DNA from: Clostridium pasteurianum
GTDB taxonomy: Bacteria; Bacillota; Clostridia; Clostridiales; Clostridiaceae
Length of the DNA stretch: 64,000 nucleotides
NCBI RefSeq assembly: GCF_001705235.1
Contig: NZ_MCGV01000001.1
Location: 186,001 to 250,000 of the forward strand
Direction: 5' to 3'
The notes below the pieces were generated by a model. The model was not told the origin of the DNA, searched no databases, and was given only the letters and a program-made list of their open reading frames with translations. Below are positions 3,552 to 44,117 of this stretch, in pieces. A program made the position numbers and the translations under genes. How positions within the stretch are numbered: position 1 is the stretch's first letter; each line of letters opens with the position of its first letter.

Positions 3552-5219
3552 TTATACTTCCATAATTATAGGAAGTATCATAGGCTTTCTTTTTGTTCTT
3601 TCATAAAGGAATATTCTTAATACATCCTTTATATTAGATTTTATTGTTGACCATTCTGTAATATGTTTTTCCTCACATTCATTCAAAGCTGTCTTTACAA
3701 TTTCTTTTGACTCTTCCATTAAATCTTCTGATTCTCTTACATATACAAAACCTCTTGAAATAATATCAGGTCCAGCAATTACAGTACCACTTACTTTTTC
3801 TATAGTAACAACTACAGTCACTATTCCATCTTGTGATAGGTGCTTTCTGTCTCTCAAAACTATATTACCAACATCACCTACTCCAAGTCCATCTACAAAT
3901 ACTTTACCAGCAACTACAGTATCAGTCTTTCTTATACTGCTTCTTGTTACCTCTATAACATCTCCAATCTCTGGGATCAAGACATTAGACTTAGACATTC
4001 CAAGACTAGTTGCAAGCTCTGCATGTTGTTTTAAATGCCTGTATTCACCATGAACTGGGATAAAGAATCTAGGTTTTATAAGTGTATGCATTAATTTAAG
4101 TTCTTCCTGACATGCATGCCCTGAAACATGAACATCTGCTAGAGCTGCATAAATAACATCTGCGCCTTTCTTAAATAATTGATTAATAACTCTTGAAACC
4201 AATTTTTCATTTCCAGGAATTGGATTAGCTGATATTACTACCATATCCCCTTCCTGTATTTTTACTTTTTTGTGTTCTTGAGCTGCCATTCTTGTAAGTG
4301 CAGACATCGGTTCGCCCTGACTTCCTGTTGTAATTATAACTATTTTATCGTCTGGGTACCTATTTATGGCATCTATGCCTATTAAAACACCTTCATTAGC
4401 TTTAATATATCCAAGTTCTATAGCAACTGCAACTATATTTTCCATACTTCTGCCAGAAACAGCAACTTTTCTGTTATAGTATTCTGCTGACTCAATTATC
4501 TGCTGTATTCTGTGAATATTAGATGCAAAAGTTGCAACTATAATCCTTCCTTTAGCCTTTGAAAATAAATTATTAAAAGTTTCTCCTACTGTGCTTTCCG
4601 ACATCGTGTAGCCTTTTCTTTCTACATTAGTACTATCGCACATCATAGCAAGAACGCCCCTTTTACCTAATTCTGCGAACCTTGCAAAATCTGCAACGCA
4701 CCCATCTATTGGTGTATAATCCACCTTAAAATCTCCTGTGTGAAAGATAACGCCCATAGGTGTATGTATTGCTATTGCTACAGAATCGGCAATACTGTGA
4801 CTTTGTCTGATAAACTCAATAGACATACTATTTAGTTTAATAATGTCTCTAGGTTTTACTACTTTTAAATCGACCTTGCTCAAAAGGTTATGCTCTTTAA
4901 GCTTTGTTTCAACTATACCAATGGTAAGTTTAGTACCATAAACAGGAACATTTAACTCTTTTAAAACATAAGGCAAGGCACCAATATGATCTTCATGTCC
5001 ATGAGTCAAAAATATTCCTTTAACCTTCTCCCTATTTTTTAATAAGTAGGTTATATCAGGTATTACTATATCTATACCGAACATTTCTTCATCGGGGAAA
5101 CTAAGACCGCAATCTATAACAGCTATTTCATCTCTATATTCAATAACTGTAAGATTTTTTCCTATCTCATTCACTCCACCTAAAGGTATTATCTTAATTT
5201 TATCCTTTTCTCTACGCAT
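3552..5219 (-). CDS. rnj: Ribonuclease J
   Basis: RNase J is a metallo-beta-lactamase/beta-CASP ribonuclease with 5'-3' exo- and endonuclease activity in mRNA decay and rRNA processing. The 555-residue protein has the zinc motif HGHEDH at 73-78, the HTGDF and CDSTN motifs, the beta-CASP region and the late VHVSGHA and PVHGEYRH motifs. GGAGGGTAGATA precedes the ATG. It follows fur by 49 bases. Only one RNase J gene is in the window, so J1 versus J2 cannot be assigned. Confidence 0.93.
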   Translation of the reverse strand: MRREKDKIKIIPLGGVNEIGKNLTVIEYRDEIAVIDCGLSFPDEEMFGIDIVIPDITYLLKNREKVKGIFLTHGHEDHIGALPYVLKELNVPVYGTKLTIGIVETKLKEHNLLSKVDLKVVKPRDIIKLNSMSIEFIRQSHSIADSVAIAIHTPMGVIFHTGDFKVDYTPIDGCVADFARFAELGKRGVLAMMCDSTNVERKGYTMSESTVGETFNNLFSKAKGRIIVATFASNIHRIQQIIESAEYYNRKVAVSGRSMENIVAVAIELGYIKANEGVLIGIDAINRYPDDKIVIITTGSQGEPMSALTRMAAQEHKKVKIQEGDMVVISANPIPGNEKLVSRVINQLFKKGADVIYAALADVHVSGHACQEELKLMHTLIKPRFFIPVHGEYRHLKQHAELATSLGMSKSNVLIPEIGDVIEVTRSSIRKTDTVVAGKVFVDGLGVGDVGNIVLRDRKHLSQDGIVTVVVTIEKVSGTVIAGPDIISRGFVYVRESEDLMEESKEIVKTALNECEEKHITEWSTIKSNIKDVLRIFLYERTKRKPMILPIIMEV

Positions 5220-5268
5220 TATCTACCCTCCTTTTTTATTTAGTTTATATTTAAACTATAAATATTAT

Positions 5269-5724
5269 TTATAGTTTTTTTCTACATTCACTGCATATTC
5301 CATAAAATTTAACGCTGTGATTTTTTATAAGGAAATCATACTTATCCTGTATACTTTGCTCCAAATCATCAAGTAAATCTCCCTGTACTTCTGTTACCTT
5401 TCCACAAACAGTGCAAATCAAATGGTGGTGCTGATGATGCTCATTTTCGTGTACCAATTCATATCTACTAAGACCATCATTTAAATCTAATTTACTTATT
5501 ACTCCAAGTTCATCTAAAATTTGGACTGTCCTATAAACCGTAGCTAACCCTATTTCTGGGCATTCAATTTTGACACAATCATATAGCTCTTCAACAGTAA
5601 GATGTTTTCCTTCATTGCTTATAATGCTATCCAAAACAGCTCTCCTCTGTGGAGTAAGCTTATATCCCTTATCTTTAAGATTGTTTTTCAACTTTTCTAT
5701 TTCTAAAGGAGATAATTTTGCCAT
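5269..5724 (-). CDS. fur: Fur-family metalloregulator
   Basis: This is a 151-residue Fur-superfamily repressor. An N-terminal winged helix (TPQRRAVLDSI, then GLATVYRTVQIL at 59-70) is followed by a His-rich metal site HENEHHQHHH (92-101) and a structural zinc site, C104xxC107 with C144xxC147. The family senses Fe2+, Zn2+ or peroxide, and sequence alone does not separate Fur, Zur and PerR here. It sits between a DUF1292 gene and rnj in an apparently co-directional cluster. The plain fur name is the cautious choice. Confidence 0.85.
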   Translation of the reverse strand: MAKLSPLEIEKLKNNLKDKGYKLTPQRRAVLDSIISNEGKHLTVEELYDCVKIECPEIGLATVYRTVQILDELGVISKLDLNDGLSRYELVHENEHHQHHHLICTVCGKVTEVQGDLLDDLEQSIQDKYDFLIKNHSVKFYGICSECRKKL

Positions 5725-5762
5725 CTTACATACCTCCCATCCACTATTTTATCGTATATATT

Positions 5763-6026
5763 TTAATTTAAATCATCTTGTGAAAACAAAGTTTCGTAAG
5801 CTTCACTTACTATATTAAATTCATTATCATCCTCAACTGTCATTAATACATCATTACCATTTGAGTCTTTATCTATTTTAAGAATTATCGCTTCTGAATC
5901 CTTAGAATCTTCAGGAACAACAATTACATATTCTTTGTCCTCTACATCCATCTTAGTTACTACCTGAAACTCTCTTTCTATACCTTCTTCATCCTTAAGT
6001 GTTATTTTGTCAACATAATTATCCAT
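5763..6026 (-). CDS. DUF1292 family protein (YrzB-like)
   Basis: This is an acidic 87-residue protein: MDNYVDKITLKDEEG, then VVTKMDVEDKEYVIVVPE and VEDDNEFNIVSEAYE. It matches the small DUF1292 family, which in Firmicutes usually follows ireB and ruvX as it does here. AGGTTTAATTTC precedes the ATG. The function is not established. Position suggests co-expression with ruvX 48 bases upstream and fur 38 bases downstream. Confidence 0.8.
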   Translation of the reverse strand: MDNYVDKITLKDEEGIEREFQVVTKMDVEDKEYVIVVPEDSKDSEAIILKIDKDSNGNDVLMTVEDDNEFNIVSEAYETLFSQDDLN

Positions 6027-6074
6027 GAAATTAAACCTCCAGTATATTCTAGTATATTTTAAAATGCATTTTAC

Positions 6075-6485
6075 TTAAGCAAGGCTGTCAAGATAGCCTT
6101 GAAGTATGTATGTGGCTGCCATTTTATCTACTATTTTTTTTCTCTTTTTCCTTGAAAGATCAGCCTCAAGCATCGCTTTATTGGCTGCTACAGTAGTTAA
6201 TCTTTCATCCCACATTTTAATTGGCACATTTATATTTTCCTTTATAACATCACAAAATTTAAGTACTTTTTCGCTTTGAAATCCAATTGTACCATTCATA
6301 TTTTTGGGAAGTCCACATACAATAGTATCGACTTCATACTTTTCACACAATTCTTTCAACTGTTTTATATCTTCTTCTTCATTTTTTCTTCTTATAGTAG
6401 TTATACCTTGAGCTGTATATCCAAGTGGATCACTAAGTGCAATTCCTATTGTCTTATTACCTACATCGATACCAAGTATTCGCAT
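6075..6485 (-). CDS. ruvX: Putative pre-16S rRNA nuclease / Holliday junction resolvase-like RuvX (YqgF)
   Basis: This is a 136-residue RNase H-fold nuclease of the YqgF/RuvX family, implicated in maturing the 16S rRNA 5' end. It starts [20 protein letters not shown] with the first acidic residue in GIDVG, then [10 protein letters not shown], and the [10 protein letters not shown] and [13 protein letters not shown] motifs. I chose the ATG at 6485 because GGAG lies 8 bases upstream and the family begins MRILG; the upstream ATG adds five atypical residues. The order alaS-ireB-ruvX-DUF1292 is conserved in Firmicutes. Confidence 0.9.
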
Positions 6486-6603
6486 AAAAATCTCCTTCAA
6501 TAAAATATACTAAAAATTTTTCAAACATAATTAATAATCAATCAAGCCTATATAGGAAACGCCTCTTCAAATAATTAAACACATTATAATGGATTTATAT
6601 AAA

Positions 6604-6630
6604 ATAAAAATGCCCCTAAGAGCACCTTTA
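6604..6630 (-). terminator. Intrinsic terminator overlapping the ireB stop
   Basis: On the minus strand AAGGTGCTC-TTAG-GGGCATTTT forms a 9-bp stem with G-T pairs, followed by TTATTTTATAT. It begins at the ireB stop codon, so alaS-ireB transcripts may partly end here before ruvX. Confidence 0.6.
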
Positions 6631-9654: not shown

Positions 9655-9862
9655 CAAAAAAGCTTTCATCCCCTATACACACATAAGGGACGAAAGCTGT
9701 AATTTCCGCGGTACCACCCTAATTACACTACAAAAGTGTCTCTCATCAAAAAGTTCAAAGATAGCTTCAAATCAATACATAAGAAGTTTTCACCAAACAC
9801 TTCTTCTCTAAATATGCAAATTAATTTTACTCATTCTTATCATCACTTTAATATAAACCAAT
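9655..9862 (-). promoter_or_regulatory. T-box leader of alaS with terminator/antiterminator
   Basis: The minus strand carries the T-box sequence GGGTGGTACCGCGG (9706-9719), which pairs with the NCCA end of uncharged tRNA. It is followed by a terminator at 9655-9697: AGCTTTCGTCCCT pairs with AGGGGATGAAAGCT, then a T-run. A likely specifier is GCT (Ala) in TTTGAAGCTATC, upstream in a Stem I-like region. The family model is that uncharged tRNA-Ala stabilises the antiterminator and switches on alaS. The specifier is inferred; the T-box and terminator are directly visible. Confidence 0.92.
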
Positions 9863-36727: not shown

Positions 36728-36811
36728 ATATAGTATGAAGAAACTATGATGGATTTTCTGAAATTGGGCACTTGGAAAATTCTGAGTTAATAGTGCAACC
36801 GACCAACTATT
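36728..36811 (+). promoter_or_regulatory. c-di-GMP-II riboswitch aptamer upstream of bcsA
   Basis: The stretch GAAGAAACTATGATGG...AAATTGGGCACTTGG...GAGTTAATAGTGCAACCGACC reproduces the conserved core of class II cyclic di-GMP riboswitches: (A)GAAAC-ATGATG, AAATTGGGCACTTG and TAGTGCAACCGACC. GGCACT and AGTGC can form the pseudoknot-region pairing known for the class. P1 is ATAGT (36730-36734) with ACTAT (36806-36810). It is directly followed by an intrinsic terminator and the bcsA gene, so its target is the cellulose operon. Confidence 0.93.
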
Positions 36812-36851
36812 GATATTTTTTAAAATATTTATCTATAGTTGGCCTTTTTTT
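36803..36851 (+). terminator. Riboswitch-controlled terminator before bcsA
   Basis: CCAACTATTGATA (36803-36815) pairs with TATCTATAGTTGG (36830-36842), followed by CCTTTTTTT. Its 5' half uses ACCAACTAT, which includes the 3' strand of aptamer P1. Aptamer and terminator should be mutually exclusive, predicting that c-di-GMP turns transcription ON. That direction is an inference. Confidence 0.85.
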
Positions 36852-36892
36852 ATAATATTAGAAAATAAAACTTACTTAGGTGGCGATATTCA

Positions 36893-39166
36893 ATGAAATT
36901 AAAGAAAATAAGAAATCATTTTTTAATAATTAGTAGTACACTGATGACTATTATTTATTTAATTTGGAGAATATTTTTTACTATTCCCATTGGAGATAAT
37001 ATAGTATCTATTTTTTCTGCGTTAGCATTATTAATTGTAGAAATTTTAGGAATGTTCGAAGCGGCAGTACACTATTACCAAATGTCAGAAATATCGTATC
37101 CATCAAAACCTAAAGTCAACGAAAATCTATTTCCTGATATAGACATTTTTATTGCTACATATAATGAGCCAAAAAAGTTACTTTATAAAACTATAAACGG
37201 CTGTATAAATATGGACTATCCCGATAAAACTAAAGTTCACATTTATTTATGTGACGATGGTAATCGACCCGAATTTAAGAATTTAGCACACTCTATGAAA
37301 ATAAATTACTTAACCCGTAGTGATAGAAAAGGTTCAAAAGCAGGAAATTTAAATAATGCTCTTGCACACTCAACTTCACCTTTAATTGTAACTTTTGATG
37401 CAGATATGATTCCAATGCATGATTTTTTAACTGCTTCTGTACCCTATTTTCTTACATCTGAAAAAGTTGGTTTTGTTCAAACTCCACAAAGCTTTTATAA
37501 TCCTGATTTATTTCAATATTATCTTTATTCAGAGGGAAGAATTCCAAATGAGCAGGATTATTTTTACAGAGACGTTCAAATTTCTAGAAACAAAAGCAAT
37601 TCAGTTATATATGGCGGCACAAATACTGTTATTTCACGTAAAGCTTTAGAGGACGCAGGCGGATTTTACACCAAAGCTATAACTGAAGATTTTGCAACTG
37701 GTTTAATAATACAAAGCAAGGGTTATAAGTGCTATGCCATTAACGAAATCCATGCTTCAGGTCTTGCCCCTGAGGACTTACCAAGTTTAATTAAGCAGCG
37801 TGAGAGATGGTCAAGAGGCTGCATTCAGACTGGTAGAAAATTAAATATATTATTTAGAAAAGGTCTAACTATAGGTCAAAAACTAAGCTATATTTCTGCA
37901 ATTTCTTACTGGTATTCAGGTATAAAAAGATTGATTTATATTATGTCCCCTATTCTTTTCTCAGTTTTTGGAGTAATTGTTGTAAAGTGTACTCTTACTC
38001 AAGTGCTTATTTTTTGGCTCCCAATGTATTTACTAAGCAACGCGGCATTAAAAAAATTATCCAACAATATAAGAACTACAAAATGGACGAATATATATGA
38101 AACTATTTTATTTCCATCACTTATTATTCCTGTTTTACTCGAAACCTTAGGTATATCACAGGTTAAATTTGCTGTAACACGAAAAGATGGAGTTCATGAT
38201 GATAAAAATTATCGATTAAAAAGATCAGTCCCTCATATATTTTTTGCCGTACTTTCCTTAATAGGCATAATAAACTGTACTAAAATGATTTTTGATTCAG
38301 GGTCACCTACATACATAGTTGTTTTATTTTGGCTTGTAGTTAATTTTTATAATTTATTAATGTCTATATTTTTTATGCTTGGAAGAAAATCCTTCCGTAC
38401 ATCCGAAAGATTTTTAGCAAAAGAGAAATGTATAATTTCTTATTATGAAAATCAAATTAGTTCTACAACTATAGATATATCTGAAGGAGGACTAGCTGTT
38501 ATTTTAAATTTTCCTGAATTTATACCTTATGATATTGATGTAAAACTCTCTATACATACTGAAATATACAATTGTGAATTTAAAGCTGTAGTTGTACATG
38601 TTCAAAATACAGGTAGGAGTTGGAAATATGCATTTAAAATAACAACTCTAGACGAAAGAAATCATAAAAAGCTGCTTCAAATTATTTATGATAGGGTACA
38701 CTCCCTACCTAAAAGTTTGGATAAAAGTAATAGCATATTTGATGATATTAGAGTTAATGTACTTGATAGGAATAAAAAGCCGTTTCAATTTAACAGGAAA
38801 CTTCCGCGCATTGAATTAAATACAGAATTATTATCAGATGAATCCGGAGAAGTAACCATGACGTCTTTTAATTATGAATATATTGTTTTAAAAGAAATTT
38901 GTTCCAAAAGGTTAAGTTCAAGATTAACGCTGCATATTAGCTACAATAAACGCATTAACTGTATTTTTGAAAAGAATATTAATTATAAACGAAAAGAAAA
39001 ATTCCATTCTTATCTTTACAGAATTGAAGATTATAAAGCTTTACAGAAAGATGAAGAATTCAGGCAAATATTAAATCAATGGATTATTAATAACAAAGAA
39101 GTTCAATATCAAGCACTTAATAAAAATAGAAATGACGACTATCTTAATGAAATGGATTATTTATGA
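36893..39166 (+). CDS. bcsA: Cellulose synthase catalytic subunit with C-terminal PilZ domain
   Basis: This 757-residue membrane GT2 polymerises UDP-glucose into beta-1,4-glucan and exports it. Membrane helices flank a GT domain with DDG (121-123), DAD (169-171), TED (264-266) and QRERW (302-306). The gating loop FAVTRKDG (426-433) matches the FxVTxK that c-di-GMP unlocks. The PilZ domain from about 498 has RTSERF and DISEGG (528-533), the binding arginines and D-x-S-xx-G. The C-terminal 120 residues are not recognised. The ATG follows TTAGGTGGCGATATTCA, a weaker ribosome site. Confidence 0.94.
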   Translation: MKLKKIRNHFLIISSTLMTIIYLIWRIFFTIPIGDNIVSIFSALALLIVEILGMFEAAVHYYQMSEISYPSKPKVNENLFPDIDIFIATYNEPKKLLYKTINGCINMDYPDKTKVHIYLCDDGNRPEFKNLAHSMKINYLTRSDRKGSKAGNLNNALAHSTSPLIVTFDADMIPMHDFLTASVPYFLTSEKVGFVQTPQSFYNPDLFQYYLYSEGRIPNEQDYFYRDVQISRNKSNSVIYGGTNTVISRKALEDAGGFYTKAITEDFATGLIIQSKGYKCYAINEIHASGLAPEDLPSLIKQRERWSRGCIQTGRKLNILFRKGLTIGQKLSYISAISYWYSGIKRLIYIMSPILFSVFGVIVVKCTLTQVLIFWLPMYLLSNAALKKLSNNIRTTKWTNIYETILFPSLIIPVLLETLGISQVKFAVTRKDGVHDDKNYRLKRSVPHIFFAVLSLIGIINCTKMIFDSGSPTYIVVLFWLVVNFYNLLMSIFFMLGRKSFRTSERFLAKEKCIISYYENQISSTTIDISEGGLAVILNFPEFIPYDIDVKLSIHTEIYNCEFKAVVVHVQNTGRSWKYAFKITTLDERNHKKLLQIIYDRVHSLPKSLDKSNSIFDDIRVNVLDRNKKPFQFNRKLPRIELNTELLSDESGEVTMTSFNYEYIVLKEICSKRLSSRLTLHISYNKRINCIFEKNINYKRKEKFHSYLYRIEDYKALQKDEEFRQILNQWIINNKEVQYQALNKNRNDDYLNEMDYL

Positions 39167-39181
39167 TTTAGGAGGATTAAC

Positions 39182-40363
39182 ATGACATTTATTAAAAAAA
39201 TACTACTGCTTTTTTTTATAATAATCTTAATTTTGCCTTATCATTTTATAGCTAAAGCAGATGCTACCTCAGGTATACTTATATCTGATAATATGCGTCA
39301 AATGTCAAACGGATCAACTGTCCAATATAATACAAATTCAATAAACGGAAATTATAATTTAACTGCTAAAATTACTTCTAAAGGATTAAAAAAAGGATAT
39401 TATTCAACTATCTTTTATAATGCTTTAAACAATAATATGTTTAATTATGGAATAGTCTCTTTTGACATACATAATAACTCTAATAGCCAATTAAATATCA
39501 ATTTTATGATCAATAAGCAAGATGGTACAAGTTTATCTATAGCAAATGACAGTTATGTACTTCTTAAAGAAAGTAGCAGTGCTTTAATAAAAAAATTATC
39601 TCCATCCAATGGAAGTATCGTAATTTCAAAAGGGTTTAATGGAACTGTTCTTATTCCACTAAACGCTTTAAAACAAAATCAAATTCAAAATACTAATCAG
39701 AATACTACATCTATGATTGCAAGCTTACCTTCTTGGTGGGGAATACTTATAACTTCAAAGGAGAATGAAAAAAAAGATTTTACTTTAAGCAATTTTAATC
39801 TAATAAACGCCGACAATAAAATACAGGAAATCGAAAATTTGAATGTAAACTTTAATGGTGACACAAGAGTTCAAATACCAGTTGTAGGTGAATCTATTGC
39901 TAAATATAGTGCCAATATTCATGATTCAAATGGAAATATAGTAAACCAAAAGATAACATATAAAATAGACACACCAAAGAAAGGAATTTCAATTGACAGC
40001 AATGGAATGCTTAAAATCAAACAAAATGTATCACCACAACCAATAAGAATAGATGCAGTGATAGACAATAATTTAGCATTTGAATCCAAAGAAATTCAAC
40101 TATATAAATCATGGACATTAGATGCAAAAGAATTGGACGGTACAAGCAAAAGTATCCCTCAAACCTACGAAGTAAAAAAAATATTAGGCAGTACATATAA
40201 ATTTTTGATGTCCGATTATGTAATGAATATTATAAGAATTTCTGCTGTTATATCATTACTGCTATTTATAAAATTATATTTATATTGGAAAAAAATTAAT
40301 TACAAAGAAAAAAAGTTTAATAGAAAAGAATATATTATTAGACGAAATAGAAAAAAATATTGA
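39182..40363 (+). CDS. Membrane-anchored secreted protein, candidate BcsB/CcsB-like partner
   Basis: This 393-residue protein has a signal peptide (hydrophobic residues about 5-25), a long extracytoplasmic Ser/Asn-rich beta-type region and one C-terminal membrane segment near residues 345-362. A very basic tail follows (KKINYKEKKFNRKEYIIRR). This topology matches what BcsB supplies to BcsA in Gram-negatives, but I see no BcsB sequence signature. Clostridial cellulose operons described in C. difficile (ccs genes) include a CcsB of this kind. It lies 15 bases after bcsA. The partner role is inferred. Confidence 0.65.
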   Translation: MTFIKKILLLFFIIILILPYHFIAKADATSGILISDNMRQMSNGSTVQYNTNSINGNYNLTAKITSKGLKKGYYSTIFYNALNNNMFNYGIVSFDIHNNSNSQLNINFMINKQDGTSLSIANDSYVLLKESSSALIKKLSPSNGSIVISKGFNGTVLIPLNALKQNQIQNTNQNTTSMIASLPSWWGILITSKENEKKDFTLSNFNLINADNKIQEIENLNVNFNGDTRVQIPVVGESIAKYSANIHDSNGNIVNQKITYKIDTPKKGISIDSNGMLKIKQNVSPQPIRIDAVIDNNLAFESKEIQLYKSWTLDAKELDGTSKSIPQTYEVKKILGSTYKFLMSDYVMNIIRISAVISLLLFIKLYLYWKKINYKEKKFNRKEYIIRRNRKKY

Positions 40364-40396: not shown

Positions 40397-41803
40397 ATGC
40401 TATTTTCAAGTATAGTTTTCATACTGTATTTCTTGCCAATAACCTTGGTATTATACTATTTAACATCATTTTCTAAAAAGCTTCAAAATATTATACTTTT
40501 AGTACTCAGTTTAATTTTTTATGCCTGGGGACAATCTTCATATGTACTAATTATGGTATTTTCTATTTTATTTAATTACATATTAGGCTTATTAATTGAA
40601 AAATACAAAGCAAAATTCTTTTTAATATTTGGATGCTTGTGTAACCTTGGAATACTCTTTGTATTTAAATATTTAGGATTTTTCATAAGAAATATAAACA
40701 GTTTACAATCCTTTAAAATACCAGTCCCTACCCTATCTCTGCCTGTTGGTATTTCTTTTTTTACATTTAAAGCTGTATCGTACCTTGTAGATGTTTATAA
40801 AGAAAAATCAAAAGCAGCTAAGAATCCTATTTATGTTGGGCTCTACATATCATTTTTCCCTGAGCTCTTAGCTGGACCTATTTCTAAATACAACAATATA
40901 GTAGATCAAATAAAAAGTAGAAAAATCACATGGCAAAAATTTTCCGTAGGTTCATGTAGATTTATTACAGGTCTTAGTAAAAAAGTTCTTATATCAAATA
41001 GTATGGCTGTTATAGTCGATAGAATTATTTCTCTCAATGGTAATTTAAACATACCGGCAACACTTGCATGGCTTGGATCCATTGCGTATACTCTTCAAAT
41101 ATATTTTGATTTTTCTGGATACTCTGATATGGCAATAGGACTAGGATTAATGCTAGGATTCAAATTTGAGGAAAACTTTAATTATCCATATATATCAAAA
41201 TCCATATCAGAATTCTGGCGCAGATGGCACATTACTTTAAGTACATGGTTTAAAGACTATGTTTATTTCCCCCTTGGAGGTTCTAGAGTTAAAAATAAAG
41301 ATAAATTAATACGTAACCTGCTTATTGTATGGGTACTCACTGGAGTGTGGCACGGTGCAGAATGGACATTTGTAATCTGGGGATTTTTGAATTTTGTCTT
41401 CATTGCTTTAGAAAAGTTATTATCTTTTGACAAATTGGATATAAAACCTATATATAAACATCTTTATGCACTTTTCATTATAAATTTAGGTTGGGTTATT
41501 TTTAGAGCAAAGGATTTAGAAGCAGCTGGTAAATATATTGCATGCATGTTTGGCCTTAAAAACAATGGTTTCTGGAGCCCATACACATTTATGTTTATAA
41601 AAGAAAATATTGTTTTCTTTATAGCTGGAATCATATTATCAACTCCAATAGCAAGAAAAACTAACACATATATAGTATATAAAGCAAAGCATGCTGCTCT
41701 TTTAGAAGTTTTGTATCCAATTTCTATATTAGGACTTTTTTTAATATCCTTATCCTATATAGTAAAAGGTTCTTATAATCCATTTATTTATTTTAAATTT
41801 TAA
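40397..41803 (+). CDS. MBOAT O-acyltransferase, AlgI-like
   Basis: This 468-residue polytopic membrane protein is of the MBOAT family, which moves acyl groups across the membrane to extracellular polysaccharides (AlgI on alginate, WssH on cellulose, DltB on teichoic acid). It has SISEFWRRWHITLSTWFKDY (His278), FPLGGSRV and the catalytic VLTGVWHGAEW (His319). The ribosome site AAAGGGTG precedes the ATG. It is followed 18 bases later by a DHHW protein, the usual transfer partner. Acetylation of the product is inferred. Confidence 0.9.
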   Translation: MLFSSIVFILYFLPITLVLYYLTSFSKKLQNIILLVLSLIFYAWGQSSYVLIMVFSILFNYILGLLIEKYKAKFFLIFGCLCNLGILFVFKYLGFFIRNINSLQSFKIPVPTLSLPVGISFFTFKAVSYLVDVYKEKSKAAKNPIYVGLYISFFPELLAGPISKYNNIVDQIKSRKITWQKFSVGSCRFITGLSKKVLISNSMAVIVDRIISLNGNLNIPATLAWLGSIAYTLQIYFDFSGYSDMAIGLGLMLGFKFEENFNYPYISKSISEFWRRWHITLSTWFKDYVYFPLGGSRVKNKDKLIRNLLIVWVLTGVWHGAEWTFVIWGFLNFVFIALEKLLSFDKLDIKPIYKHLYALFIINLGWVIFRAKDLEAAGKYIACMFGLKNNGFWSPYTFMFIKENIVFFIAGIILSTPIARKTNTYIVYKAKHAALLEVLYPISILGLFLISLSYIVKGSYNPFIYFKF

Positions 41804-41821: not shown

Positions 41822-43024
41822 ATGGACAGACTATTTTTCAAAAAATTTATAACATCCATACTATTTGTCATTTTACTTTTTGTACTTTCCTTTAATAATT
41901 TTGCGAAAAATTATACATCTTTATTAAATGCATTTAAAAATACAAAATTTAACAGTATATCTATAAATAGCGCTACAAGCTCCTTAGAAAATACATTAAA
42001 TGATAGCACCTATGGTAAATATACCTTTATAGAATTATATGGATATATTCAAAAATTAATGTGCAAAAATGAAGAATCAAATTTCGAAGTTGTAAAGGAT
42101 GAAAACGGATTTTTGCATTACACCTATTTTGCAAGTCAGCCTAATGCTGTTTATCCACTTGTAAAAAGAATGCAAGCTTTGAAAAGCAACCTAAAAGACA
42201 AAAACACTAAACTAATTTACATGATGCCGCCAGATAAATACATAAGAGGTTATTCAAAATTCCCATATGGAATTCCATACAGTTATTCAAATGAAACGGC
42301 AGATGCATTTCTAAATTTACTGAAAAAGAATAATATTAATACAATAGATCTGCGTAAAAATTTGAGCAAAAGCGATATTCCAAACGATCAGCTATTTTTT
42401 AAGACCGATCATCACTGGACAATTCAAACAGCTTTTTATGAATTTGGAGAGCTTGTGAAAACTTTAAATGAAAGATACGATTTGAATATCGATAAAGATG
42501 GCTTTTATACGAATAAAAATAATTATAATTTTATAACTTACAAAAATTCCTATGTTGGATCAATGGGACGAAAAACTGGAATTACATATTCTGGGGTAGA
42601 TGATTTTACTTTAATTTACCCTAAGTTTGATACAAATTATAACTTCTACTGTAAAACAGGAAGTCAGATATTTAATTTTAATGGTAGATTTGAAGATACT
42701 CTACTTACAATATCACCTTTTAGAACTAACAAAGGTACTTATGATTTAGAAGCTGATAAATATTCTTCATACCTTTTTGGCAATAGAGGAATTGTCCATG
42801 TGACAAACAAAAATAATCCCAATGGTCCAAAGGTTTTATTTGTAAAAGACTCAGTTACTGTACCACTTGCAGCATTTTTATCTACTGTTTGCTCTGATGT
42901 TTACCTTGTTGATCCTAGATATTATACTGGCAGCATTCCAGCTTATATAAATAGTGTAAAGACTGACTTTGTGTTTGTATCATTTTACCCTCAAGATTTA
43001 ACAATGGATTTCTTTAAATTTTAA
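41822..43024 (+). CDS. DHHW family protein (AlgJ/AlgX-like SGNH acetyltransferase candidate)
   Basis: This 400-residue protein has a single N-terminal membrane anchor (about 8-27) and an extracytoplasmic SGNH-like domain. The name motif is exact: KTDHHWT (194-200), and a nucleophile candidate is S344 in VKDSVTVP, with YPKFD and PDKY supporting the fold. In alginate and cellulose acetylation the DHHW/SGNH protein receives the acetyl group from the MBOAT protein. Its pairing with the preceding gene supports this; the substrate is inferred as cellulose. Confidence 0.82.
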   Translation: MDRLFFKKFITSILFVILLFVLSFNNFAKNYTSLLNAFKNTKFNSISINSATSSLENTLNDSTYGKYTFIELYGYIQKLMCKNEESNFEVVKDENGFLHYTYFASQPNAVYPLVKRMQALKSNLKDKNTKLIYMMPPDKYIRGYSKFPYGIPYSYSNETADAFLNLLKKNNINTIDLRKNLSKSDIPNDQLFFKTDHHWTIQTAFYEFGELVKTLNERYDLNIDKDGFYTNKNNYNFITYKNSYVGSMGRKTGITYSGVDDFTLIYPKFDTNYNFYCKTGSQIFNFNGRFEDTLLTISPFRTNKGTYDLEADKYSSYLFGNRGIVHVTNKNNPNGPKVLFVKDSVTVPLAAFLSTVCSDVYLVDPRYYTGSIPAYINSVKTDFVFVSFYPQDLTMDFFKF

Positions 43025-43058
43025 GAAATAATGAATTACATTTATGGAGGTTTTAATA

Positions 43059-44117
43059 ATGAAACTTGGTAGGTTCAAAATTTTCCCTTTAGTTATATTA
43101 ACTATTATTTCTCTAACGAGCTGCGTGAATACACATAAAAAAATCCAGAACAAAAGAACCTACGGAAGTGATTATTATAATTACTGGAAAAAGAAATATG
43201 TTGTAAGCGTAAATTCCAGCATGAGTAAAGTAGTTAATCCTGAAAATAATAAAATTACTGTCAGTGAAGGAATGGGCTATGGTCTCCTATTTAGTGCTGC
43301 TTATGATGATAAAAACCAATTTGATAAGCTTTGGAATTATACTAAGCACTACCTCGATAATAATGGTTTAATGAACTGGAAAATAAACTCTAATGGAAAT
43401 ATTTCAGGTTATGGATCAGCTTCAGATGCAGATGAAGATATAGCATATGCTCTTTTACTTGCAGCAGAAAAATGGCCTAATGCTAGCTACAATAAGGAAG
43501 CGGTAAAAATGATTAACGCAATAAAAAGCACAGAAATTTCAAAAGATTATATACTTTTACCTGGTGACAGTTGGGGAAACAATCCCCCTTTTAATCCCTC
43601 CTACGTTTCTCCATACTACTATTATAAATTTGCCGCACTTTCAAGCTCTGAAAAAAATTATTGGGAAAAAGTGCTGAATGTAAATGTTAACCTTCTAAAT
43701 CAAAATATAGACAAAGAAACAGGACTTTTACCTGATTGGATTAATAAAGATGGCACTATAAAAGCTGAAAATAATAAATTTGGATATGATGCAGTAAGAG
43801 TTCCTTTAAGGCTTATTGAATTTTATAATGAAACGCATAATTCTACAGCAAAGGATATATTAGAGAGAGAAAATGACTTTCTTTCAAAAATTGGTTCTAA
43901 TAAGCTAGTCTCCGGATACAGCACAGATGGTAAACCATTAGCAAACTACATAAACTCCGTATATTTATCTTCTTTTTCAGCAGCAAGCCTTATTAATAAA
44001 GATTCTAACTTCAGCAAAGAAATGATAACTAAACTCAAGAATTCTAAAGATGAAAGCTATTACGGATGCTCTTTAAAGATGTGGGTGTTTCTTATTTTAG
44101 ATAATAAACTAAATTAA
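43059..44117 (+). CDS. Glycoside hydrolase family 8 lipoprotein (BcsZ-like endoglucanase)
   Basis: This 352-residue GH8 enzyme cleaves beta-1,4-glucan. From the ATG at 43059 (behind GGAGG, 8 bases) it has a lipoprotein signal with LTSC (Cys22). The GH8 core has the catalytic acid E70 in TVSEGMGYGLLF and aspartates in YGSASDADEDIAYAL (D123, D125), then PGDSWG. In Gram-negative operons BcsZ trims nascent cellulose and helps export; here it would sit on the outer face of the membrane. It is the last gene of the operon, followed by repeat D. Confidence 0.9.
   Translation: MKLGRFKIFPLVILTIISLTSCVNTHKKIQNKRTYGSDYYNYWKKKYVVSVNSSMSKVVNPENNKITVSEGMGYGLLFSAAYDDKNQFDKLWNYTKHYLDNNGLMNWKINSNGNISGYGSASDADEDIAYALLLAAEKWPNASYNKEAVKMINAIKSTEISKDYILLPGDSWGNNPPFNPSYVSPYYYYKFAALSSSEKNYWEKVLNVNVNLLNQNIDKETGLLPDWINKDGTIKAENNKFGYDAVRVPLRLIEFYNETHNSTAKDILERENDFLSKIGSNKLVSGYSTDGKPLANYINSVYLSSFSAASLINKDSNFSKEMITKLKNSKDESYYGCSLKMWVFLILDNKLN

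Follow-up and report, generated by a model that had tools for sequence, protein, structure and literature searches.

Introduction

Escherichia coli controls cellulose production at two tiers by the same messenger, cyclic di-GMP (c-di-GMP), with CsgD and DgcC acting on expression and the PilZ domain of the synthase BcsA acting on enzyme activity. We analysed a stretch of 64,000 nucleotides from Clostridium pasteurianum (contig NZ_MCGV01000001.1, positions 186,001 to 250,000; hereafter the window, with positions counted from its first letter), which carries an operon for a related family 2 glycosyltransferase (GT2) with a PilZ domain, CcsA, preceded by a c-di-GMP-II riboswitch. While the expression tier of E. 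coli works via a transcription factor and a dedicated cyclase, that of the window would work via the operon's own leader RNA.

The BcsA proteins of Cereibacter and E. coli have the GT2 core, the gating loop FxVTxK, a PilZ domain with RxxxR and [D/N]xSxxG motifs and the overall fold in common with CcsA of the window, which differs from them in a predicted second PilZ fold and in scoring far under the CelA equivalog cut-off; Pfam and NCBIfam searches revealed no orthologues of BcsB, BcsC or BcsZ in its operon. The ccsZABHI operon known from Clostridioides difficile and further clostridia likewise encodes a CcsA with GT2 and PilZ domains and the adjoining CcsB, CcsH (MBOAT) and CcsI (DHHW) (PMC7710045), and the CcsA loci of C. 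difficile show ~51% identity to the window protein over residues 25-757, which take in the tail. At its end the window operon has a GH8 gene instead of a GH5 CcsZ gene, and it is led by a c-di-GMP-II aptamer, whereas the C. difficile loci have neither the GH8 nor the leader, and the word riboswitch is absent from the main text of Scott et al. 2020 (PMC7710045). The mixed-linkage glucan synthase RiGT2 (Cgs) of Romboutsia ilealis is also a Gram-positive GT2-PilZ protein with RTSER, FxVTxK and QRxRW motifs, but it comprises 637 residues, lacks the tail, belongs to a separate clade as judged by proxies and showed no response to c-di-GMP in the published experiments (PMC10374906). As to the RNA, full transcription of pilA1 in C. 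difficile needs c-di-GMP acting on a riboswitch (PMC8470499); it is also of class II but controls pili, whereas the riboswitch of the window leads a PilZ-bearing polymer synthase.

We propose that c-di-GMP governs the output of the ccs operon at no fewer than two steps, with a predicted PilZ-fold tail following the canonical PilZ domain of CcsA, a reading to which we assign a probability of about 60%. Among open-licence papers, none was found whose title or opening abstract reports that a riboswitch precedes ccsA or that CcsA has a second PilZ domain. What is added to knowledge is that two riboswitch classes recur in front of a single enzyme family, together with a cryptic second PilZ domain, the latter as a prediction.

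Results

The ccsA leader carries a c-di-GMP-II aptamer overlapping a terminator

A preliminary description of the window, made from the letters alone, had placed a c-di-GMP aptamer before the synthase, and the Rfam search of the whole 64-kb window confirmed it: the RF01786 match exceeds the gathering score (66.5 versus 53.5 bits; E 1.1e-12) and is one of two gathering-level matches, the other being a T-box. A purpose-built covariance model, R1, scores the aptamer at 91.9 bits, the window being part of its training set. The terminator hairpin is followed by a U tract (7 T at 36845-36851), and its 5' arm shares 8 nt with the 3' strand of P1, so that the two structures are mutually exclusive and a ligand holding P1 should block termination. 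The leader of ccsA should thus be a transcriptional ON switch, a direction read from the layout. At random places of the window, comparable hairpins (free energy of -10 kcal/mol or lower plus a U tract) occurred in 4 of 300 cases. The same overlap recurs in all aptamer leaders of this study (7/7) and in an additional, decayed one, with 6 to 16 nt being shared in the six other aptamer leaders and 12 nt in the decayed leader; the hairpin of one of the seven, that of Lachnotalea, is at -7.9 weaker than the -10 threshold of the random-place control.

Two riboswitch classes precede ccsA in relatives

Scanning GTDB genomes with a 12-row alignment yielded 241 relatives, 80 of which were kept as named loci. 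Aptamers of class II and of class I were each searched in 79 of the 80 genomes; L061 lay outside both genome searches and was covered for class II at the locus level only. The genome searches score part of the first-look candidates only, so that weak aptamers may escape, and in five loci (L052, L081, L082, L105, L107) less than 1 kb of contig lies upstream of ccsA. Class II aptamers were found upstream of ccsA in Clostridium hydrogenum (L038), C. puniceum (L039), Tepidibacter mesophilus (L054, 55.3 bits) and Sporolactobacillus laevolacticus (L057, 56.8 bits), class I aptamers in Lachnotalea glycerini (L059, 66.5 bits) and Ca. Galacturonibacter soehngenii (L064, 72.1 bits), class I adjacency being judged from a visual comparison of contig numbers and coordinates and then confirmed by Rfam on the two loci. 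Two unrelated RNA classes are repeatedly placed before the same enzyme in Bacillota, with 6/80 named loci being led by an aptamer.

Four of the 48 class II matches in the 79 genomes lie at most 600 nt upstream of ccsA on the same strand, while simple arithmetic on 48 random placements in genomes of ~4 Mb gives an expectation of ~0.003, so the pairing of class II aptamers with ccsA exceeds chance. An aptamer leader universal to ccs operons is ruled out, class II being present at 4/80 and class I at 2/80 loci. Searching R1 at the locus level (80 loci, the window and three more stretches) added no class II aptamer except a decayed one in the near relative G146. As the training set of R1 comprised the window and four loci, it recovers these by construction; its matches outside the training set are the G146 locus (L120, 42.7 bits) and L052 (17.4 bits, chance level). 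The decayed G146 leader retains a terminator-like hairpin with a weakened U tract. Mapped on the tree of CcsA proteins, the aptamer state undergoes six or more changes if the decayed leader is scored as absent, which we read as repeated gain with some loss.

CcsA and its canonical PilZ domain

The motifs named in the preliminary description are all present, i.e. the gating loop FAVTRK, RTSER (R502-TSE-R506) and DISEGG (D528-ISEG-G533), but its label BcsA is wrong in the strict sense, since the protein scores 423.4 bits against the equivalog cut-off of 699.1 bits of TIGR03030 and stands among CcsA proteins in the tree. The domain composition of GT2 plus PilZ fits the clostridial Ccs system as well, and the protein is better called CcsA. 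In the tree, the window protein groups with those of C. hydrogenum and G146 at a support of 100 within 78 CcsA-type rows, from which nine RiGT2-like rows are split, likewise at 100. These nine are proxies chosen by length and similarity, RiGT2 itself being absent; they mostly comprise ~630 residues, with L125 being longer and L124 a fragment. The tree results from a quick search with long branches flagged and six fragments omitted (L052, L082, L109, L114, L115, L117). With 757 residues including a tail, the window protein differs from the RiGT2 type (~630 residues, no tail) also in its length.

An alignment of the window protein with those of 54 of the 80 loci (55 rows, near-duplicates and fragments omitted) shows the catalytic residues D122 (CDDG), D169 and D171 (DAD), T264-E265-D266 (TED) and Q302-R303-R305-W306 (QRERW) to be invariant. 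The gating loop is nearly as constant, with F426, T429 and K431 in 55/55 rows and the valine in 54/55. Counting back from QxxRW, E294 aligns with the autoinhibitory Glu371 of Cereibacter BcsA. The AlphaFold2 model of CcsA (mean predicted local distance difference test score, pLDDT, 89.8; predicted template modelling score 0.85) resembles c-di-GMP-bound BcsA (4p00; E 5.6e-43, template modelling scores 0.73/0.76) and also E. coli BcsA; the closest solved structures are the BcsA proteins of E. coli and Cereibacter.

PilZ domain 1 is recognised by the Pfam profile and has both RxxxR and [D/N]xSxxG. R502, R506, S530 and G533 are found in 55/55 rows, residue 528 being D in 48 and N in 7, which makes an activation of CcsA by c-di-GMP via PilZ domain 1 plausible. 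From the preliminary description's idea of dual control, the RNA layer is upheld by the aptamer, the overlapping terminator and the same layout in six other genomes, whereas the enzyme is not a BcsA in the strict sense; we consider the interpretation strong in its RNA half and plausible in its protein half.

A predicted second PilZ fold in the CcsA tail

Beyond PilZ domain 1 (from window residue 601 onwards), all 55 proteins continue for ~130-180 residues, ~150 in the window protein. The predicted model of this tail by itself (pLDDT 85.8) has six strands plus a long helix, in agreement with the six-stranded PilZ barrel. Structural comparison of the model by VIA-align ranks PilZ proteins on top, i.e. 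PA0012 (Z 9.0), YcgR (8.7), MotI (8.4) and E. coli BcsA (8.3); 28 of the first 29 rows are PilZ proteins and one is an uncharacterised protein (4q63). PilZ proteins reach down to Z 6.8 and unrelated folds start at 6.3, values below 8 possibly meaning a common arrangement only according to the program's own note. The best Foldseek match is MotI/DgrA at an E-value of only 3.6e-3.

The aligned ranges, given without residue pairs, begin at model residue 33 against residue 695 of E. coli BcsA and at 32 against residue 112 of YcgR. Provided the first residues are ungapped, R34 and R38 of the model (R635 and R639) would fall on the RxxxR arginines. Each of the two is conserved in 54/55 rows. The second motif is lost: residue 660 is N or D in 55/55 rows, but the serine and glycine are missing in what has become an FNYEY-type sequence. 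The case for the tail being a PilZ domain is thus built on predicted structure and motif placement, and predicts a further PilZ fold in which RxxxR is almost invariant and [D/N]xSxxG is missing. A text search of Scott et al. (PMC7710045) for 'second PilZ' returned no mention of such a domain. Most CcsA relatives are closed by an acidic and largely conserved C-terminal end (EFDEMxYL-like; window 38696-39163 for the tail region).

Operon, associated enzymes and polymer

The preliminary range, 36728-39166, takes in the aptamer and ccsA but stops short of the operon, which comprises five genes in the order A-B-H-I-GH8 and reaches 44117 (Table 1). The adjoining ccsB, the MBOAT ccsH and the DHHW ccsI correspond to the Ccs system; a GH5 CcsZ is not in the operon, its place being taken by a GH8 enzyme. 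The ccsB-like protein has a hydrophobic N-terminus and a hydrophobic stretch near its C-terminus as read from its sequence, and is not BcsB by Pfam or NCBIfam.

The GH8 protein carries, as read from its sequence, a lipoprotein-like signal (LTSC). Its closest solved structure is C. thermocellum CelA (1cem, E 1.1e-47), with BcsZ (3qxf) at E 1.4e-12, and we rejected it as a BcsZ orthologue, as it is nearer to CelA and scores 94.5 versus 299 bits in the BcsZ equivalog. GH8 is also found at the operon end in C. hydrogenum, where the gene crosses the end of the 18-kb locus and is hence missing from the survey alone, and in G163. Across the 80 named loci, GH5 CcsZ-like genes occupy several positions or are not found, and at several other loci of the survey neither GH5 nor GH8 was seen; GH5 CcsZ is not universal. 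The GH8 gene seems to have been recruited independently from the enzyme family that also serves Gram-negative operons.

The ccs operon of C. hydrogenum has B, H and I twice before the GH8 (A-B-H-I-B-H-I-GH8; L133 604-11683). In L067, L071, L072, L073, L085 and others the operon follows a second layout, H-I-(~280 aa)-A-GH5, in which no ccsB is recognisable and the ~280-residue gene may take its part. The product would be either cellulose or a mixed-linkage glucan, cellulose being what we infer, and the polymer is probably O-acetylated.

Table 1. Elements of the ccs operon and its leader in the window
Feature	Position	Strand	Evidence
c-di-GMP-II riboswitch aptamer	36730..36810	+	Rfam RF01786, 66.5 bits
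Terminator hairpin	36803..36842	+	free energy -11.4 kcal/mol; 8 nt of 5' arm within aptamer (P1 3' strand)
ccsA, 757-aa GT2 beta-glucan synthase; transmembrane helices, gating loop, PilZ domain and predicted second PilZ fold at the C-terminus	36893..39166	+	
GT2 catalytic domain (aa 81-309)	37133..37819	+	PF13641; CDDG, DAD, TED, QRERW
Gating loop FAVTRK (aa 426-431)	38168..38185	+	55-row alignment
PilZ domain 1 (aa 502-599), RTSER and DISEGG	38396..38689	+	PF07238, 49.7 bits, cut-off 22.5
Predicted PilZ-like domain 2 in the tail (aa 635-748), not annotated; RKLPR and FNYEY	38795..39136	+	six-strand model, VIA-align Z up to 9.0
ccsB-like protein	39182..40363	+	no Pfam above cut-off; same place and similarity in relatives
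ccsH, MBOAT O-acyltransferase	40397..41803	+	PF03062, 116.1 bits
ccsI, AlgX/DHHW acetyltransferase-like	41822..43024	+	PF16822, 48.7 bits; PF14286, 26.9 bits
GH8 endoglucanase in place of GH5 CcsZ	43044..44117	+	PF01270, 165.9 bits

Signal supply and further RNA elements

The genome encodes 11 GGDEF domains, four PilZ domains including the one of CcsA, and three class II aptamers, so the means to make and to read c-di-GMP are present; the genome search found no class I aptamer. One of the class II aptamers (L118 7331-7413, minus strand; C1:1592830-1592912) lies 707 nt upstream of a gene for a secreted GH9-CBM-dockerin cellulase (3943-6624, minus strand), and the counterpart GH9 gene in G160 (L132) has a class II aptamer ~620 nt upstream. 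A promoter-like TTGACA...TATTAT adjoins the GH9 gene of C. pasteurianum, which renders an aptamer control of GH9 uncertain and the case weak. Downstream of the class II aptamer that scores highest in the genome (C1:2474984-2475067) come an unassigned 99-aa open frame (L119 1098-1394, plus strand) and then a convergent gene. The T-box leader of the window (9683-9852, minus strand) scores 108.9 bits in Rfam.

Discussion

Our data suggest a model in which c-di-GMP would stabilise P1 of the aptamer, so that the terminator could not form and RNA polymerase would read into ccsABHI-GH8, the layout being seen and the effect of the ligand predicted from it. CcsA would then be inactive as long as PilZ domain 1 is free of c-di-GMP, whose binding would release the gating loop in the way of BcsA, a step suggested by the motifs. 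The tail would serve as a structural or partner-docking module beside the sensor; it may bind c-di-GMP, but with its second motif lost we do not favour this. Being read twice, the messenger would drive a feed-forward AND gate, slow to build and fast to stop, since existing enzyme would idle once c-di-GMP falls. The polymer, probably cellulose, would be O-acetylated by CcsH and CcsI and trimmed or released by GH8.

Several observations weigh against this model. On the side of the RNA, no aptamer was found at 74/80 named ccsA loci, among them those of C. difficile (L065, L066, L068, L079) and Paenibacillus (L044-L051, L060) and the close relatives G160 (L010) and C. chromiireducens (L009/L040), and the near relative G146 has only a decayed c-di-GMP-II aptamer before ccsA (L006 3854-3937, minus strand; 33.3 bits), so the RNA layer is dispensable. 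The promoter of the ccs operon was not identified either: the region holds 11 sigma-70-like matches versus 5.4 expected. For the tail, a Pfam search with 46 of the 55 tails found no family at 0.1 by more than one tail and PilZ by 0/46, and a recognisable sequence duplication of PilZ domain 1 was rejected (hhalign probability 1%, P 0.05). As to the enzyme, the position equivalent to Glu371 is Glu in only 9/55 rows, and RiGT2, reportedly the only related Gram-positive synthase tested for c-di-GMP in print, is a negative precedent in the results given in PMC10374906: RiGT2 has RTSER and NLSEKG motifs, but c-di-GMP did not raise its synthesis, and neither isothermal titration calorimetry nor surface plasmon resonance showed binding of the ligand by the PilZ domain. 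Given this outcome despite an identical RTSER, motif conservation alone cannot establish control at the enzyme level.

These results would fit control in one stage at transcription, the RNA alone reading c-di-GMP and the PilZ domains being structural; deletion of the PilZ domain abolished RiGT2 activity, and a structural PilZ is one possibility proposed in that paper (PMC10374906), with the poorly conserved tether residue of CcsA pointing the same way. We nevertheless regard this as rather unlikely, as the ligand motif residues of PilZ domain 1 and the gating loop are fully conserved across 55 divergent rows and the paper itself assigns RiGT2 to a different clade, its proxies splitting off at 100 in our tree; the authors add that binding could have been masked by glycosylation in yeast or by the lack of the GT domain (PMC10374906). 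That the aptamer is a functionless relic before this operon draws on the decay at the same place in G146, which shows that loss occurs, but the aptamer core of the window is intact and its terminator has a full U tract, making a relic very improbable. A BcsA synthase having one PilZ sensor and a riboswitch, and making ordinary bacterial cellulose under control at two layers, would explain why the top matches in the PDB and in fold are BcsA proteins and why GT2 and PilZ motifs are retained; we consider it improbable in view of the NCBIfam CelA score far under the cut-off, the ccsB-like protein not being BcsB, the predicted second PilZ fold, the acetylation genes and the kinship with CcsA.

The identity of the polymer is a separate matter. 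A (1,3;1,4)-beta-glucan instead of cellulose gains from mixed-linkage glucan signals obtained with RiGT2 in yeast and in the exopolysaccharide of four tested species (as given in PMC10374906), and from the CcsB model of Scott et al. being based on CBM11, a mixed-linkage glucan binder (PMC7710045). As RiGT2-like proteins, mostly ~630 residues long and lacking the tail, are set apart as a clade of their own, and C. difficile CcsZ is described in PMC7710045 as specific for cellulosic materials, we deem this outcome unlikely. Unlikely as well is a threefold reading of c-di-GMP with different affinities, by the leader RNA, by PilZ domain 1 and by a contact of the tail RxxxR; if true, transcription, opening of the enzyme and a third step, e.g. 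docking of CcsB or of the acetylase, would come on in order as c-di-GMP rises.

As a summary, control of the ccs operon by c-di-GMP at two or more steps would provide a compact and testable example in which a single messenger controls the mRNA of a gene as well as the protein it encodes. The natural variants with class II, class I, decayed or absent aptamers form a ready comparison set. The predicted second PilZ domain concerns the whole family of clostridial cellulose synthases, C. difficile included, and any model of how these enzymes are switched would have to include it.

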